Source: Verrucomicrobiota bacterium (GTDB taxonomy: Bacteria > Verrucomicrobiota > Verrucomicrobiia > Chthoniobacterales > Terrimicrobiaceae). Taken from it: DNA of 64,000 nt. The notes below the pieces were generated by a model, which saw nothing but the letters and a program-made list of their open reading frames with translations, was not told where the DNA came from and made no database searches. Positions 2,611 to 60,374 of this stretch are shown in pieces. Position numbers and translations under genes: made by a program. The DNA is taken from NCBI GenBank assembly GCA_026398255.1, contig JAPLTG010000011.1:1-64000 (forward strand), read 5' to 3'. Numbering within the stretch: position 1 is the stretch's first letter; each line of letters opens with the position of its first letter.

Positions 2611-3363
2611 ATGAGCAACAAACGATTCGAAAACCAAGTCGCCGTCGTGACCGGAGCCGGTCGCGGAATCGGCGAAGCCATCGCCAAACGCCTCGCCGCC
2701 GAGGGAGCCAAAATCGCCGTCGTCAGCCGCACAGAGGCGAACTCCGCCAAAGTCGCCGAAGCCATCAACGCCCTCGCTCCCGACACCGCCAAACCCTACG
2801 CGGTCGATGTCGCTGATTTCGACGCCGTCCAAAAAGCGGGCGACCAAATCCTCGCAGACTTCGGCCGTTGCGACATCCTCGTGAACAACGCCGGCATTAC
2901 CCGTGACACCCTCGCGATGCGCATGTCGAGCGAGGACTGGGATCTCGTCCTCCAAACCAACCTCAAGGGTGCCTTCAATTTCACCCGCGCCGTCCTCCGC
3001 GCGATGGTCAAACAACGCTCGGGCCGCATCATCAATATTAGCTCCGTGAGCGGCCTCATGGGCCTCGCCGGTCAAGCGAACTACGCCGCCAGCAAGGCCG
3101 GCCTCATTGGCATGACCAAAAGCATCGCCCGCGAGATCGCCAGCCGCGGCATCACCGTGAATGTCGTCGCGCCGGGTTTCATCGAAACCGACATGACCTC
3201 CGTGCTGAACGAGGAAGTCCGCAAGGGCGCGCTTGCGCAGATTCCCGTCTCGCGCTTCGGTGCGGTGGATGACATTGCCTCCGCCGTGGCTTTCCTCTCG
3301 AGCGCCGAGGCAGGCTACATCAGCGGCCAAGTCCTCGCGGTGGATGGCGGGATGAGCATGTAA
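2611..3363 (+). CDS. fabG: 3-oxoacyl-[acyl-carrier-protein] reductase
   Basis: Short-chain dehydrogenase that reduces 3-oxoacyl-ACP with NADPH in fatty-acid elongation. The 250 residues contain the nucleotide motif TGAGRGIG, the NNAG motif, and the catalytic Ser (NISSVSG) with YAASKAG providing Tyr and Lys. The C-terminus VDGGMSM is the standard FabG ending. Start ATG at 2611. A longer open frame to 2452 only overlaps the GNAT gene. No other fab genes are nearby; sixA follows after 15 bases. Confidence 0.92.
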   Translation: MSNKRFENQVAVVTGAGRGIGEAIAKRLAAEGAKIAVVSRTEANSAKVAEAINALAPDTAKPYAVDVADFDAVQKAGDQILADFGRCDILVNNAGITRDTLAMRMSSEDWDLVLQTNLKGAFNFTRAVLRAMVKQRSGRIINISSVSGLMGLAGQANYAASKAGLIGMTKSIAREIASRGITVNVVAPGFIETDMTSVLNEEVRKGALAQIPVSRFGAVDDIASAVAFLSSAEAGYISGQVLAVDGGMSM

Positions 3364-3378
3364 AAATCCTGCCCCCGG

Positions 3379-3846
3379 ATGATCATCTACTTTCTTCGCC
3401 ACGCGGACGCCGAGGATTTCTCGGGAAACGATTTCGAGCGCAAACTCACTCCCAAAGGCCACGACCAAGCCGAGCGCGTTGGAAATTTCTGCGATAAATA
3501 CAGCATCACGCCCGAGGTTTTCCTGACCAGCCCGCTCGTCCGCGCCCGCCAAACCGCCGAGATCGTCGGCAAAAAAACCGGCGTCACCCCCGTCATCGCC
3601 GACTGGCTGGCCTGCGGAATGACCCCCGCGACCTTGATCGAAAAACTCCAACCGCTCGCCACCAAATCCTCGGTTCTGCTCGTCGGCCATGAACCCGATC
3701 TCAGCACCGCCGTGAGCCATCTCCTCGGCTTGCCCGAGCCCGGCAATTTCCCGATCCGCAAAGCCTCCCTCACCGCCATCGACGCGCCTTGGCTCGAGAA
3801 AGGCTCCGGCGCGCTGGAATTCAGCATCCCTCCCAAACTTCTTTGA
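3379..3846 (+). CDS. sixA: Phosphohistidine phosphatase SixA-like
   Basis: A histidine-phosphatase-superfamily protein of 155 residues. The RHG-type motif is LRHADAE at residues 6-12, with the basic residue and second catalytic histidine in VGHEPDLS. SixA enzymes dephosphorylate phosphohistidine on signalling or phosphotransfer proteins. The length and the short RHG variant (RHAD) fit SixA better than phosphoglycerate mutase. It lies between fabG and glgA with gaps of 15 and 4 bases, so the three may be co-transcribed. Confidence 0.85.
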   Translation: MIIYFLRHADAEDFSGNDFERKLTPKGHDQAERVGNFCDKYSITPEVFLTSPLVRARQTAEIVGKKTGVTPVIADWLACGMTPATLIEKLQPLATKSSVLLVGHEPDLSTAVSHLLGLPEPGNFPIRKASLTAIDAPWLEKGSGALEFSIPPKLL

Positions 3847-15667: not shown

Positions 15668-15832
15668 TTAGGGCGTGCCCTGCATGGCAGCACCCATGGC
15701 TCCAGCGCCTTCCCAGGATTGGGGGCGATTCCATGGCAGAGTGCCTTCCGCGTGAGCGGCGCTTTTTTCATCGAGTGCACATCCTCCAAGCAAGAGAGCG
15801 GCGGCTAAAATCAGGAGGCTAGTTCGCAACAT
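15668..15832 (-). CDS. Small lipoprotein, 54 residues
   Basis: A reading frame starting with ATG at 15832 encodes a lipoprotein signal peptide (MLRTSLLILAAALLLGGC). The lipobox LGGC is at residues 15-18, with mature Cys at 18. The mature 37-residue peptide contains PWNRPQSWEG and a Met/Ala/Gly-rich tail (GAMGAAMQGTP). Its start overlaps the end of the upstream coiled-coil gene by 14 bases, so the two are probably translationally coupled. I recall similar PWN..SWEG mini-lipoproteins in Verrucomicrobiota; the function is unknown. Confidence 0.75.
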   Translation of the reverse strand: MLRTSLLILAAALLLGGCALDEKSAAHAEGTLPWNRPQSWEGAGAMGAAMQGTP

Positions 15833-16613
15833 ATTCGGTCACCACATAGTCGCCGGGTTGGATGCTGAGGCCGTTGACAAGGCTTCCAGGGATAATGTCC
15901 GCGATGGACGAGGCAGGTTCGACCGAGGTGATGCGAACCCGACCGATCCGCGTGTTGCCACGCTTGACGAGAAGTTCGGTATTGCTCGTGACTCCGCTTT
16001 TGTCGCCAACATTGAGCACCACGAAATTCCAGGCTTCGTTCACTGCAAGGATTCGGCCGGAGAGGTCGTTGGCTTTTTGGATGCGCTTTTTCTCGACGAG
16101 TTGGGACTCGAGATCATTCGCTCGATTTTTGGTCGACTCGAGATTTGCGGTGAGTTGCTCGTTGAGAGTTTCTAGCTCCTTCACCTTGATTTTACTTTGC
16201 TCCAAATCCTCTCGGACTGGCTCATCTTTCAGAGTCGTGAGCTCCTGATTAAGCTTCTCCCCCTCCGTCTTCAACTCGGCGACTTGGCCCTTCAGCATTT
16301 CATTCTCGGTGTTGATCGTGTTTTGCTGGGTCTTCGCTAATTCAATATCGGATTGCTTGGACTCGACTTCCGCCTTGAGCTTGGCGACTTCGGCTTGGGA
16401 GGCTTCGTTTTTTGAAGTCCATTCGGCAACCGACTTTTGCGAATCCGCTAATTTAGCATTCGTATCTTCCAGTGACTTTTTAGTGGCAGCGACCTCGCCT
16501 TGAGAAGTGGCAAGGTCGGTCTTTGTTTGAACGAGCGTATTCCTATTAAGAAGCCCGAGTAACGCTGTGATTGTTGCAAGTGCAATCGTCGCGATGGTGA
16601 GGATTTTTGCCAT
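15819..16613 (-). CDS. Membrane-anchored coiled-coil protein with FlgT-like C-terminal domain
   Basis: A 264-residue protein. An N-terminal membrane anchor or signal (residues 4-22, ILTIATIALATITALLGLL) is followed by a heptad-rich coiled coil (about 30-175, Glu/Lys/Gln-rich). A globular end then contains VVLNVGDKSGV, KRGNTRIGRVRI and IQPGDYVV. The C-terminal domain has the same order of motifs as the protein at 57290-58072 inside the ribosomal operon, so the two are paralogues. The domain pattern is reminiscent of the flagellar FlgT C-terminal domain. It lies downstream of prfB and upstream of the mini-lipoprotein. Codon use is less GC-biased than in its neighbours. Confidence 0.72.
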   Translation of the reverse strand: MAKILTIATIALATITALLGLLNRNTLVQTKTDLATSQGEVAATKKSLEDTNAKLADSQKSVAEWTSKNEASQAEVAKLKAEVESKQSDIELAKTQQNTINTENEMLKGQVAELKTEGEKLNQELTTLKDEPVREDLEQSKIKVKELETLNEQLTANLESTKNRANDLESQLVEKKRIQKANDLSGRILAVNEAWNFVVLNVGDKSGVTSNTELLVKRGNTRIGRVRITSVEPASSIADIIPGSLVNGLSIQPGDYVVTEYVAN

Positions 16614-56093: not shown

Positions 56094-56795
56094 TCAGACT
56101 GCCGCTGGTGCCTCGACCTCAGGGGTCGGGTTGGAACGAACGGTTTCCTTAGGTTTATCCAGCACTTCTTCTTCAACTTTCTTGCAAATCCAGCACTTAA
56201 CTCCGATTTTTCCGGCAACGGTCTCGGCTTCCGCAAACCCATAGTCGATCGGGATACGGAGGGTGTGGAGAGGGACTTTGCCTTCGTGATAACGCTCGGT
56301 GCGGGCAATTTCAGCGCCACCCAAACGACCGGCGCAACGGATTTTGATACCAAGAGCACCTTGGTCCATCGTGAGTTGCACAGCGCGCTTCATGGCGCGG
56401 CGGAAGGAAATACGGCGCTCAAGCTGGGAGGCGACATTCTCGGCCACGAGTTGGGCGTCGAGGTCGGGATTCTTGATTTCGACGATGTCGATCTTCACCT
56501 GCTTGCCGCCGGCGAGATCACTGACTTCCTTGGTGAGGTTCTCGATTTCCTGGCCACGGCGACCGATCACCACACCTGGACGGGCGGTGTGGATTGTGAC
56601 TCGGACGCTATTCCAAGCGCGCTCGATCACGATACGGGCCACGGCGGCTTGTTTAAGCTTTTTCTTGAGAGTGGTGCGAATTTTGTCGTCGGCGATCAGG
56701 TAGTCGGCGAAGTCTTTGCGCGAGGCATACCAGCGGGAACCCCAGTCACGAGTGATGGGTAGACGGAATCCGATCGGGTTTACTTTTTGTCCCAT
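56094..56795 (-). CDS. rpsC: 30S ribosomal protein S3
   Basis: 233 residues: [24 protein letters not shown]..., with the KH domain ([22 protein letters not shown]) and the C-terminal [16 protein letters not shown]-type fold (here [21 protein letters not shown]). It has mRNA helicase activity at the entry site. A short acidic tail ([10 protein letters not shown]) ends it. Confidence 0.96.
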
Positions 56796-56797
56796 GA

Positions 56798-57277
56798 TTA
56801 CTCCTTGGTTTCCGCGGCGGGTGCGGCGGATTCGGTTTCAGTCGCCGGGGCGGGCTCGGCGGCTGGAGCCTTCGACTTAGCGGAGGCTTTTTTAGTTGTT
56901 TTTTGTTTCTTCTTCTTGAGTTTGTCCTCGCGCCGGACGATTTCAATCTCGTCGGTTAGGACGACACGAATATGGCTGGAGCGTTTGCGGATCGGACCGG
57001 CACTTCCGCGAGCTTTGGGTTGGGAACGATTCAATGTCGGCCCCTCGCCTACAACGGCTTCTTTCACGACGAGATCGGAAACATTCAGGCTATTGTTGTT
57101 CTCGGCGTTGGCGATCGCGCTACGCAGTGTCTTAAGAATCAAGCCAGCGGCTTTTTTCGGAGTGAAACGCAAAAGATCAAGGGCGTCCGTGGCGGGAAGA
57201 CCTTGAATGGCGCGTGTGACCTCGCGAGCCTTGAAGGCTGAGATCTTGGCGAACCTGTGTGTCGATTTTACCTGCAT
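56798..57277 (-). CDS. rplV: 50S ribosomal protein L22 with C-terminal extension
   Basis: 159 residues, versus 110 in E. coli. The core ([20 protein letters not shown], tunnel-loop region [28 protein letters not shown]) is standard. About 40 extra residues are first Lys-rich, then Ala/Glu/Thr-rich. L22 lines the exit tunnel. It is separated from rpsS, its usual direct neighbour, by an exported coiled-coil gene. Confidence 0.95.
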
Positions 57278-57289
57278 GTCTTTTGTTGT

Positions 57290-58072
57290 TTATTTTTTGG
57301 CGTCCACTTTAAGGGTGTCGCCTTTTTCCACTCGCGTGTTATCCGAACTAAGATTTTGAATCACAGCACCGCTGATGCGTTCTCGCACATCGATGACTTT
57401 GGCATTTCCTATGATTTGACCATCCCGAAGGATGATAAAGGGCAATCCTACTTTGACGCCGTTGGTCGAGCCGACATTGGCGACAATGAGGGAAAGGTCT
57501 TCTTTGAAATCCACCACCCGCGCCTGCTGAAGACTAGTGCTTGCATCGCTACTTATGTTTTCGGTCACTCCGAGGATTTGGGCTGTTTCCCGCAATTCTG
57601 CTTCCACAGCTACTCTTGCCTCGGTTTTGATTTCACCGGAGGTTTTTACAAGTATTGTAATGGACTCGCTGAGTTTTACCAACTGCTCGATGGCTGCTTG
57701 ATGTTTTTCCTTGAGAACACGAAGTTCTCGAATGGCTTGGAGCAATCTGGCTTCCAGTAGGGAAGGATCGTTGTCTATATTGGACAATCCGATCGCTTCC
57801 AATCGGAGTTGGGCCTCTAAAAGTTGACGCTTAAAGATTTCTGCCTCGGTATTTGCGGCCGCGATGCCCTCTGTGAGGTTTTTCATCTGCGATCGCGCCA
57901 TGAGGAGTTGCTCTTTCAGCGCGGCAACATCATTGGTGTCTGGGTCGGGAAGTGTGTATCCCTGATCCGGACTGCCTGATTCAAAATCTGTCAAAGATCG
58001 GTCGTCCCTTGCCGATGCCCCAGAGAGCGACAGCAGGAACGCGAGAGATGCCGCCGTGGCGACAACCCTCAT
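57290..58072 (-). CDS. Exported coiled-coil protein inserted in the ribosomal operon
   Basis: 260 residues, no known family I can name. A signal peptide (AASLAFLLSLSGASA, cleavage near residue 21) and an acidic stretch precede a coiled coil (~50-155). A C-terminal domain follows (VVDFKEDLSLIVANVG, GVKVGLPFIILRDGQIIG, VEKGDTLKV) with the same motif order as the protein at 15819-16613. Gaps are 3 bases from rpsS and 12 bases to rplV, so it must be co-transcribed with the ribosomal genes. Base and codon use is less GC-biased than in the flanking genes. Confidence 0.78.
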   Translation of the reverse strand: MRVVATAASLAFLLSLSGASARDDRSLTDFESGSPDQGYTLPDPDTNDVAALKEQLLMARSQMKNLTEGIAAANTEAEIFKRQLLEAQLRLEAIGLSNIDNDPSLLEARLLQAIRELRVLKEKHQAAIEQLVKLSESITILVKTSGEIKTEARVAVEAELRETAQILGVTENISSDASTSLQQARVVDFKEDLSLIVANVGSTNGVKVGLPFIILRDGQIIGNAKVIDVRERISGAVIQNLSSDNTRVEKGDTLKVDAKK

Positions 58073-58075
58073 TAT

Positions 58076-58354
58076 TTATTTTGTCACTTTTGCGGTGTGA
58101 GAACCGTGTTTCTTGAAAATTCGTGTTGGCGAAAATTCGCCCAATTTGTGTCCGACCATATTTTCGGTCACGAAGACGGGGATGAAAGTCTTGCCGTTGT
58201 GCACATTGAAGGTGTGGCCAACGAAGTCCGGCGTAATCGTGCTGCGGCGGGACCATGTTTTGATGGGTTTTTTTGTTCCGGAGTCGTTGATCCGGTCGAT
58301 CTTGTCGAGGAGCTTCCACTCCACAAATGGGCCTTTTTTCAGTGAGCGTGCCAT
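58076..58354 (-). CDS. rpsS: 30S ribosomal protein S19
   Basis: 92 residues: [19 protein letters not shown]..., with [44 protein letters not shown]. It sits in the 30S head with S13. Complete, normal length. Confidence 0.97.
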
Positions 58355-58357
58355 GGA

Positions 58358-59206
58358 TTAGTTCTTCGATTTGGCCTTGCGGCGCTGGATAATAAAGGTG
58401 TCGCTGGGTTTGTGCTTCGCGCGGGTCTTGAAGCCCTTGGCGAGCTGACCCCAAGGGGACATCGGATGGTGACGACCGCCACCGCCCTTGCTCTTGCCTT
58501 GACCTCCACCCATCGGGTGATCGACCGGGTTCATGACCATGCCGCGGACATGGGGGCGAACCCCGAGCCAACGGCTGCGACCTGCCTTGCCGGACGAGAC
58601 ATTCATGTGGTCGGTGTTACCGACTTGGCCGATCGTGGCGTAGCAATTTTCATTGATGCGGCGGATTTCGCCGGAGGCGAGTTTCAAAAGACCGTATCCG
58701 CCCTCGCGGTTGGCGAGTGTGGCGTAGGATCCCGCGCTGCGGATCATCTGGCCGCCACGGCCTGGAACGAGTTCCACATTGTGGACTTGAGTTCCCAGCG
58801 GGATAAATTTCAAAGGAAGGGCATTGCCGACACTGGGTTCGGCTTTTTCGCCGGCGCTCACCTTCATGCCAACAGTCAAACCGACTGGAGCAAGAATATA
58901 AGCACGCTCCCCATCAGGAAATTGGATCAATGCGATACGCGAAGTGCGGTTCGGATCATACTCGATGGCCACCACGCTGGCGACCACATCCCTGTGGAGG
59001 CGCTTGAAATCAATGATACGATAGCGGCGTTTGTGGCCACCGCCGACATGACGCATCGTGATGCGACCTTGGTTGTTGCGGCCACCGGTGCGCTTGATGG
59101 ACTCGGTGAGTTTTTTCTCCGGCTTGGTTTTGGTGATCTCCGCGAAATCCGGAAGGATTTTGAAGCGGGCAGCCGGGGTGAGTGGACGGAATGTTTTGAG
59201 TGCCAT
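58358..59206 (-). CDS. rplB: 50S ribosomal protein L2
   Basis: 282 residues: [20 protein letters not shown]..., [26 protein letters not shown], and the peptidyl-transferase signature [18 protein letters not shown]. Subunit association and the peptidyl-transferase centre depend on it. It is a little longer than E. coli (273). Confidence 0.97.
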
Positions 59207-60117: not shown

Positions 60118-60197
60118 GAGTTGGAAACGGAAACGGCACAAGCCTTCAATCCCGCTTTGTAAGCGGTTTCGGAGATGATGTGCGGTTGGAAATTCAT
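60114..60197 (-). CDS. Possible 27-residue leader peptide upstream of rplD
   Basis: ATG at 60197 opens MNFQPHIISETAYKAGLKAC..., ending TGA at 60114-60116, overlapping the rplD ATG by 4 bases. No homology is recognised. The coupling geometry is the same as for real gene pairs in this operon, so it may set rplD translation. It could equally be a chance frame. Confidence 0.4.
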   Translation of the reverse strand: MNFQPHIISETAYKAGLKACAVSVSNS

Positions 60198-60219
60198 TGT
60201 TGTTGACCGTTGTTTTCGC

Positions 60220-60275
60220 CCTTCATCGGGGGACAAAAAAACCACGCTTGCGTGGTCATTAAGCTACCCCCAAGG
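60220..60275 (-). promoter_or_regulatory. Structured leader of the ribosomal block (attenuator-like)
   Basis: On the minus strand, an inner hairpin ACCACG-CAAG-CGTGGT (60256-60241) is followed directly by a T run (60241-60235), a terminator shape. An outer clamp CCTTGGGGG (60275-60267) can pair with CCCCC-gatg-AAGG (60232-60220). The two foldings use overlapping sequence and could switch. It lies ~110 bases before rplD, whose product L4 regulates S10 operons by attenuation in other bacteria. A weak promoter (TTGCCT-16-TAGTTT, 60319-60292) would start transcription just upstream. Confidence 0.5.
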
Positions 60276-60330
60276 ACTAACGGGAAGTGGGAAACTACAG
60301 GCCGCTGAAAATGAGGCAAGATAAAAAACG

Positions 60331-60374
60331 AAAAAAACTCGACTAGTGATTCCATGAGGTTTTTCCCGAGTTTT
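60331..60374 (-). terminator. Terminator after the nucleotidyltransferase gene
   Basis: On the minus strand, AAAACTCG (60374-60367) pairs with CGAGTTTT (60341-60334) across a 25-base loop and runs into T residues to 60331. The stem begins at the stop codon of the sugar-nucleotidyltransferase gene. It would insulate the ribosomal block from the upstream operon. Confidence 0.6.

Follow-up and report, generated by a model that had tools for sequence, protein, structure and literature searches.

A predicted exported coiled-coil and beta-barrel protein encoded between rpsS and rplV in the S10 cluster of Verrucomicrobiota

The S10 ribosomal protein cluster in the 64,000-nt stretch of DNA analyzed here (referred to as the window) contains a gene for a 260-aa protein, here called X, that lies between rpsS and rplV and is predicted to be exported and to combine a coiled coil with a small C-terminal beta barrel (Table 1). 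The adjacency of rpsS and rplV is among the most stable ones in bacteria. The position of X in the cluster is conserved in the order and class, and the gene evolves under purifying selection. We see an even chance that X is an extracytoplasmic coiled-coil/barrel scaffold of the cell envelope, the dosage of which would follow ribosome synthesis. No description of the X gene was found in the literature searched, which took in few subscription papers; this agrees with the first-pass annotation of the sequence, in which no exported protein was known at this site. Neither Pfam nor NCBIfam has a name for the family.

All genes of the locus are on one strand, in the order rplD, rplW, rplB, rpsS, X, rplV, rpsC, rplP, rpmC, rpsQ, rplN, rplX, rplE. 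The rpsS stop codon is followed by three nucleotides (ATA) and the start of X, and the end of X is separated from the ATG of rplV by 12 nucleotides (ACAACAAAAGAC). The open reading frame reported in the first-pass annotation was thus reproduced in coordinates, strand and layout. As the spacing is tight and all genes have the same orientation, X is likely co-transcribed with rpsS and rplV. No Rfam elements were found at this site in the window. The S10 cluster here apparently starts at rplD (window positions 60141-60374; G000:C6:57927-58544), and rplC of the source genome is on another contig.

Table 1. Features of the X locus and of the paralogue Y (window coordinates)
Feature	Coordinates	Strand	Basis
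X, 260-aa predicted exported coiled-coil/beta-barrel protein	57290..58072	-	ORF, ATG start, TAA stop
Predicted signal peptide of X, residues 1-21, MRVVATAASLAFLLSLSGASA	58010..58072	-	inspection, plausible
RSLTD motif, residues 25-29, just after the predicted signal peptide	57986..58000	-	inspection of family sequences
Long helical, probably coiled-coil region, residues 49-144	57641..57928	-	AlphaFold2 with low confidence, weak heptads
C-terminal six-stranded beta-barrel domain, residues 181-256, FlgT_C-like	57305..57532	-	alignment A1, AlphaFold2, VIA-align, hhalign
rpsS, upstream neighbor of X, 3-nt gap	58076..58354	-	
rplV, downstream neighbor of X, 12-nt gap	56798..57277	-	
rplB, S10 cluster, 5' of rpsS	58358..59206	-	synteny marker
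rpsC, S10 cluster, 3' of rplV	56094..56795	-	synteny marker
Y, 264-aa membrane-anchored coiled-coil paralogue with the same C-terminal domain	15819..16613	-	A1 profile match, E 5.6e-10

The protein search detected X in 48 of 58 relatives, and a class-wide search with a single-sequence query detected it in 156 of 286 genomes, while a scan of genome contigs yielded one close relative only. All fetched homologues from the order and class with E < 1e-7 are situated at the rpsS-rplV site. Both flanks are present in 94 distinct loci, and a few more are cut by the contig end; since the loci were fetched for having an X match, presence is given in this sample and place is the result (L003 and L032 are one contig and were counted once). 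Five weaker matches located elsewhere (L050, L051, L052, L084, L085) look like paralogues. The homologous reading frames encode 207-558 aa, with median gaps of 11.5 nt to rpsS and 20 nt to rplV. Among them is the protein of the gut bacterium Akkermansia muciniphila (236 aa, L212:1731-2441, minus strand, 20 nt from rpsS and 38 nt from rplV); we take this genome (G134) to be A. muciniphila, as the Amuc_1100 sequence matches it at 100% over 317 aa. The search across genomes proposed in the first-pass annotation has thus shown that the site recurs in both the class and the phylum. Two 0.9-Mb genomes from the order of the source genome (G031 and G040; loci L200 and L201) are without X, and no remnant of it is detectable in their rpsS-rplV spacers of 148 or 313 nt, which would be compatible with loss of the gene as these genomes shrank.

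A second genome (L003) has a homologue that is 96% identical and flanked in the same way, and its comparison with X gives dN 0.021 and dS 0.138 (dN/dS about 0.15). Together with the 94 recurrences in the order and class, this excludes chance or an artefact, the latter being what the first-pass annotation had regarded as fatal to its claim. The annotation also noted that the codon usage of X is less GC-biased, which is confirmed (GC3 of 0.52, compared to 0.60-0.73 in the neighboring ribosomal protein genes), and took it as a sign of insertion into the operon, which does not stand. GC3 of X is below that of the ribosomal neighbors in 84 of the 94 loci across the class, so it is a standing trait of the family and not a mark of recent arrival; the difference in the source genome (0.12) exceeds the mean (0.05). 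Moreover, pairwise distances of X correlate with those of concatenated RpsS, RplV, RplB and RpsC at r = 0.81 (86 loci), within the range observed for the ribosomal proteins among themselves (0.71-0.87), and X has no match in 72,556 plasmid records. Hence the explanation by recent insertion or an assembly artefact, based on the codon argument, has practically no chance of being correct: the low GC3 in the window speaks for it, and the 94 loci with the same site, the class-wide GC3 trait, the distance correlation and the plasmid search rule it out together with horizontal gain. By these sequence comparisons, X is of ancient origin and its inheritance is largely vertical, because its distances track those of ribosomal proteins, its site is the same class-wide, and it is found directly 5' of rplV elsewhere.

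The latter is seen at the level of the phylum, where RpsS, RplV and the X profile (alignment A1 of 68 sequences) were located in the same 145 genomes. The rpsS-X-rplV arrangement is present in 46 of them, rpsS adjoins rplV without X in 43, and one more has an rpsS-rplV gap of 317 nt with no X match. In 50 further genomes, which represent many families of the phylum, with or without X, the cluster is broken at this junction; the break is genuine in G311, G362, G383, G388 and G397, where both genes are on one very long contig. An X profile match lies directly 5' of rplV in 30 of the 50 split genomes, and the gene ahead of it is unrelated and variable (e.g. topA, trpB, tatC, aroC, galE-like). On reading the DNA, G344, which the profile had placed among the genomes without X, proved to have a divergent copy at this position, and X is absent upstream of rplV in four other inspected genomes, all of them split (L122-L125). 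In several families X at the same site consists of the signal peptide and the C-terminal domain only (111-129 aa, no coiled coil), which indicates that an exported C-terminal barrel 5' of rplV is the conserved core. The family is found in the phylum including Akkermansia, and is known here from Verrucomicrobiota alone. In one family (f23, Opitutales-like; L202, L204, L205, L206, L142, L143) a conserved, putatively structured RNA was noticed just 5' of rplV, with the layout AAAGGGYAGGG, hairpin, CTRTCGCC, second possible hairpin, GGAATC. RNAalifold proposes 11 pairs for it, five of them with changes on both sides (six sequences only), and the motif has no match in Rfam at E up to 1; it is a candidate ribosomal-protein leader.

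These arrangements bear on the chief rival of the dosage reading, according to which X serves the envelope in a way that has nothing to do with ribosomes, landed by chance in an operon that happens to be strongly expressed, and is kept there since moving it would disturb ribosomal genes, so that its position has no regulatory meaning. We consider such hitch-hiking possible, though somewhat doubtful. It is in accord with the 43 of 145 genomes where the junction is intact and X is absent, with proteins of the same type encoded outside ribosomal operons (see below), and with the far lower conservation of X compared to its neighbors (mean pairwise distance of 0.69 vs 0.22-0.35). On the other hand, 30 of the 50 split genomes have kept X immediately ahead of rplV, so that the linkage outlives rearrangement, although inertia could also explain it. 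The 43 genomes weigh against the scaffold reading as well, as they show that X is not universally required.

The anatomy of the protein was largely foreseen in the first-pass annotation, which described an exported coiled-coil protein with a small C-terminal domain. An N-terminal hydrophobic segment of 15 residues followed by an AxA-like site was found in 107 of 126 family members by a crude hydropathy test, and X itself has the hydropathy of an exported or membrane-anchored protein; 19 members have no clear segment with the start chosen here, which counts against export as a general feature. From these sequences, X is predicted to be exported, or anchored by the N-terminal helix in some lineages. 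RSLT or RSLK recurs just after the signal peptide in many relatives. In the full-length AlphaFold2 model (two sequences, pLDDT 42, used for helix assignment only) helices span residues 49-93, 103-144 and 151-166, and heptad periodicity over residues 49-166 is weakly above that of shuffled sequences (p = 0.03). Relatives match coiled-coil Pfam models below the cut-off, and the helical coiled coil is missing in some lineages. The charge of mature X is -8. No Pfam or NCBIfam cut-off is passed by X; in particular, no ribosomal protein family scores above its cut-off in either database. Matches to KIF9, L31e and SMC were rejected as due to coiled coil or chance.

The strongest conservation is in the C-terminal domain, where Gly201 is invariant and Gly209, Arg216, Arg230, Gly251 and Asp252 are near-invariant (A1). 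The structure prediction suggested in the first-pass annotation gives a confident all-beta model of this domain, a barrel of six strands (AlphaFold2 from three sequences, pLDDT 84, pTM 0.76). The top VIA-align match is the flagellar LPHT ring (8z5n_0; Z 11.0, rmsd 2.3, 79 residues, 19% identity), and FlgT (3w1e) is similar (Z 10.1, rmsd 2.6, 80 residues, 18% identity). Thus, X is predicted to have the fold of FlgT_C-type domains, though this fold is not exclusive to them, many N-terminal barrels of F1-ATPases having Z in the same range, tied with 3w1e, at lower identity. Foldseek alone places F1/V1-ATPase barrels first (E about 0.01), which we read as a shared small barrel and not as shared function; at the same time, the occurrence of the barrel in these N-terminal domains means that the fold alone is no proof of an envelope-scaffold role. 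Profile comparison with hhalign relates the domain over its whole length to FlgT_C proteins of the class itself (94-95%), compared to at most 0.6% for control ribosomal-protein blocks. Pfam FlgT_C (PF16538, cut-off of 27 bits) does not match the window protein, but it matches 27 of 68 relatives at E up to 0.1 (best 6e-5), and X loci are seen below the cut-off in the genome scan with this model (G126:C36, 21.2 bits; G075:C1:440307, 19.3 bits).

In Vibrio, FlgT belongs to the H ring, a periplasmic part of the flagellar motor. X shares with FlgT_C (PF16538; 3w1e, 8z5n) the predicted six-stranded barrel and extracytoplasmic setting, while the other FlgT domains are replaced in X by the coiled coil (residues 1-180 give only coiled-coil-type matches, so X is not a full FlgT), and X is encoded in a ribosomal operon. 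By analogy, the likeness supports a barrel that docks onto the envelope and is carried by a coiled-coil stalk; it does not point to a function in flagella. The best PDB sequence-profile match is TsaP of the type IV pilus machine (3jc8; E 0.0027, with a single-domain i-Evalue of 0.12, which is weak alone), the C-terminal part of which aligns to the X barrel; TsaP has a LysM domain and X has none.

The barrel also bears on an explanation that recalls SecM upstream of secA, in which translation and export of X bring polysomes of the S10 operon to the Sec translocon, or export pausing adjusts rplV and later genes. The predicted export of X, its place 12 nt before rplV, and its location immediately ahead of rplV in split clusters are what one would expect under such targeting or sensing. 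However, a pure targeting signal would not need a conserved folded barrel, no conserved arrest-like C-terminus is seen (the folded barrel is followed by a variable tail), and the window has no Rfam element here, so that we regard this explanation as very unlikely.

The window also encodes Y, which like X joins an anchored coiled coil to this type of C-terminal domain and differs from it in lying outside ribosomal operons. Y adjoins prfB in the window, and the neighbors of its relatives differ between genomes. A. muciniphila has two Y-type genes in tandem (L213:1984-2760 and 2808-3623). Such paralogues count against a scaffold that depends on the operon, since they show that proteins of this type can in general do without a place in the operon.

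A similar layout of anchor, coiled coil and periplasmic beta domain is known for MreC (PF04085), and X could be imagined as an MreC-like elongasome component tying rod-type wall growth to ribosome synthesis. Apart from the layout, weak PF04085 matches in three of 68 members point in this direction; X itself has no match to the model, and the consensus C-terminal domain reaches 14.0 bits at a cut-off of 28. The true MreC of the source genome is encoded separately (C17:193791, E 2e-39, 135 bits), the four Akkermansia-genus genomes tested have X without a PF04085 match, and hhalign of the X domain with MreC gives 0.7-2.6%, that is, no significant profile-profile match. X as the rod-shape MreC is thereby ruled out, and an MreC-like role in a looser sense is left with a very slight probability, lower than that of targeting or sensing.

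Returning to the envelope scaffold with ribosome-linked dosage, the following scheme would account for the data. Entry of the X gene into the S10 cluster, at the rpsS-rplV junction, would predate the divergence of the main classes of the phylum, and surviving copies would mostly have stayed directly 5' of rplV. The protein would be exported by its signal peptide, or anchored by the N-terminal helix in some lineages; the coiled coil would oligomerise, and the barrel would dock onto a partner in the envelope, so that X would most likely act in the periplasm as a scaffold or adaptor when the envelope is built. Provided that X is co-transcribed with rpsS and rplV and coupled to them in translation, which we infer, as we do the scaffold role, the amount of X would follow ribosome synthesis and hence growth rate. 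A more far-reaching proposal, made tentatively and less probable than the scaffold role with such dosage as such, is that of an old circuit peculiar to this lineage, in which ribosome synthesis directly sets the dose of an exported scaffold encoded in the S10 operon and thereby of one extracytoplasmic step in the growth of the envelope.

Non-ribosomal genes in ribosomal operons are already known. In particular, secY in the spc operon and secE near rplK are, like X, export- or envelope-related genes carried in or beside ribosomal operons. Still, these are universal components of the Sec system found elsewhere in the clusters, while X is known here from one phylum only, is itself a predicted exported protein, and is situated between rpsS and rplV. 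Judged by the literature searched, a predicted exported protein at this junction throughout the class and beyond appears to be new. How envelope growth is matched to ribosome production in bacteria is a long-standing question, and X is a candidate link between the two inside one of the most conserved operons of a phylum that includes Akkermansia. Moreover, given how stable the rpsS-rplV adjacency is among bacteria, presence of the insertion could help to trace descent within the phylum.
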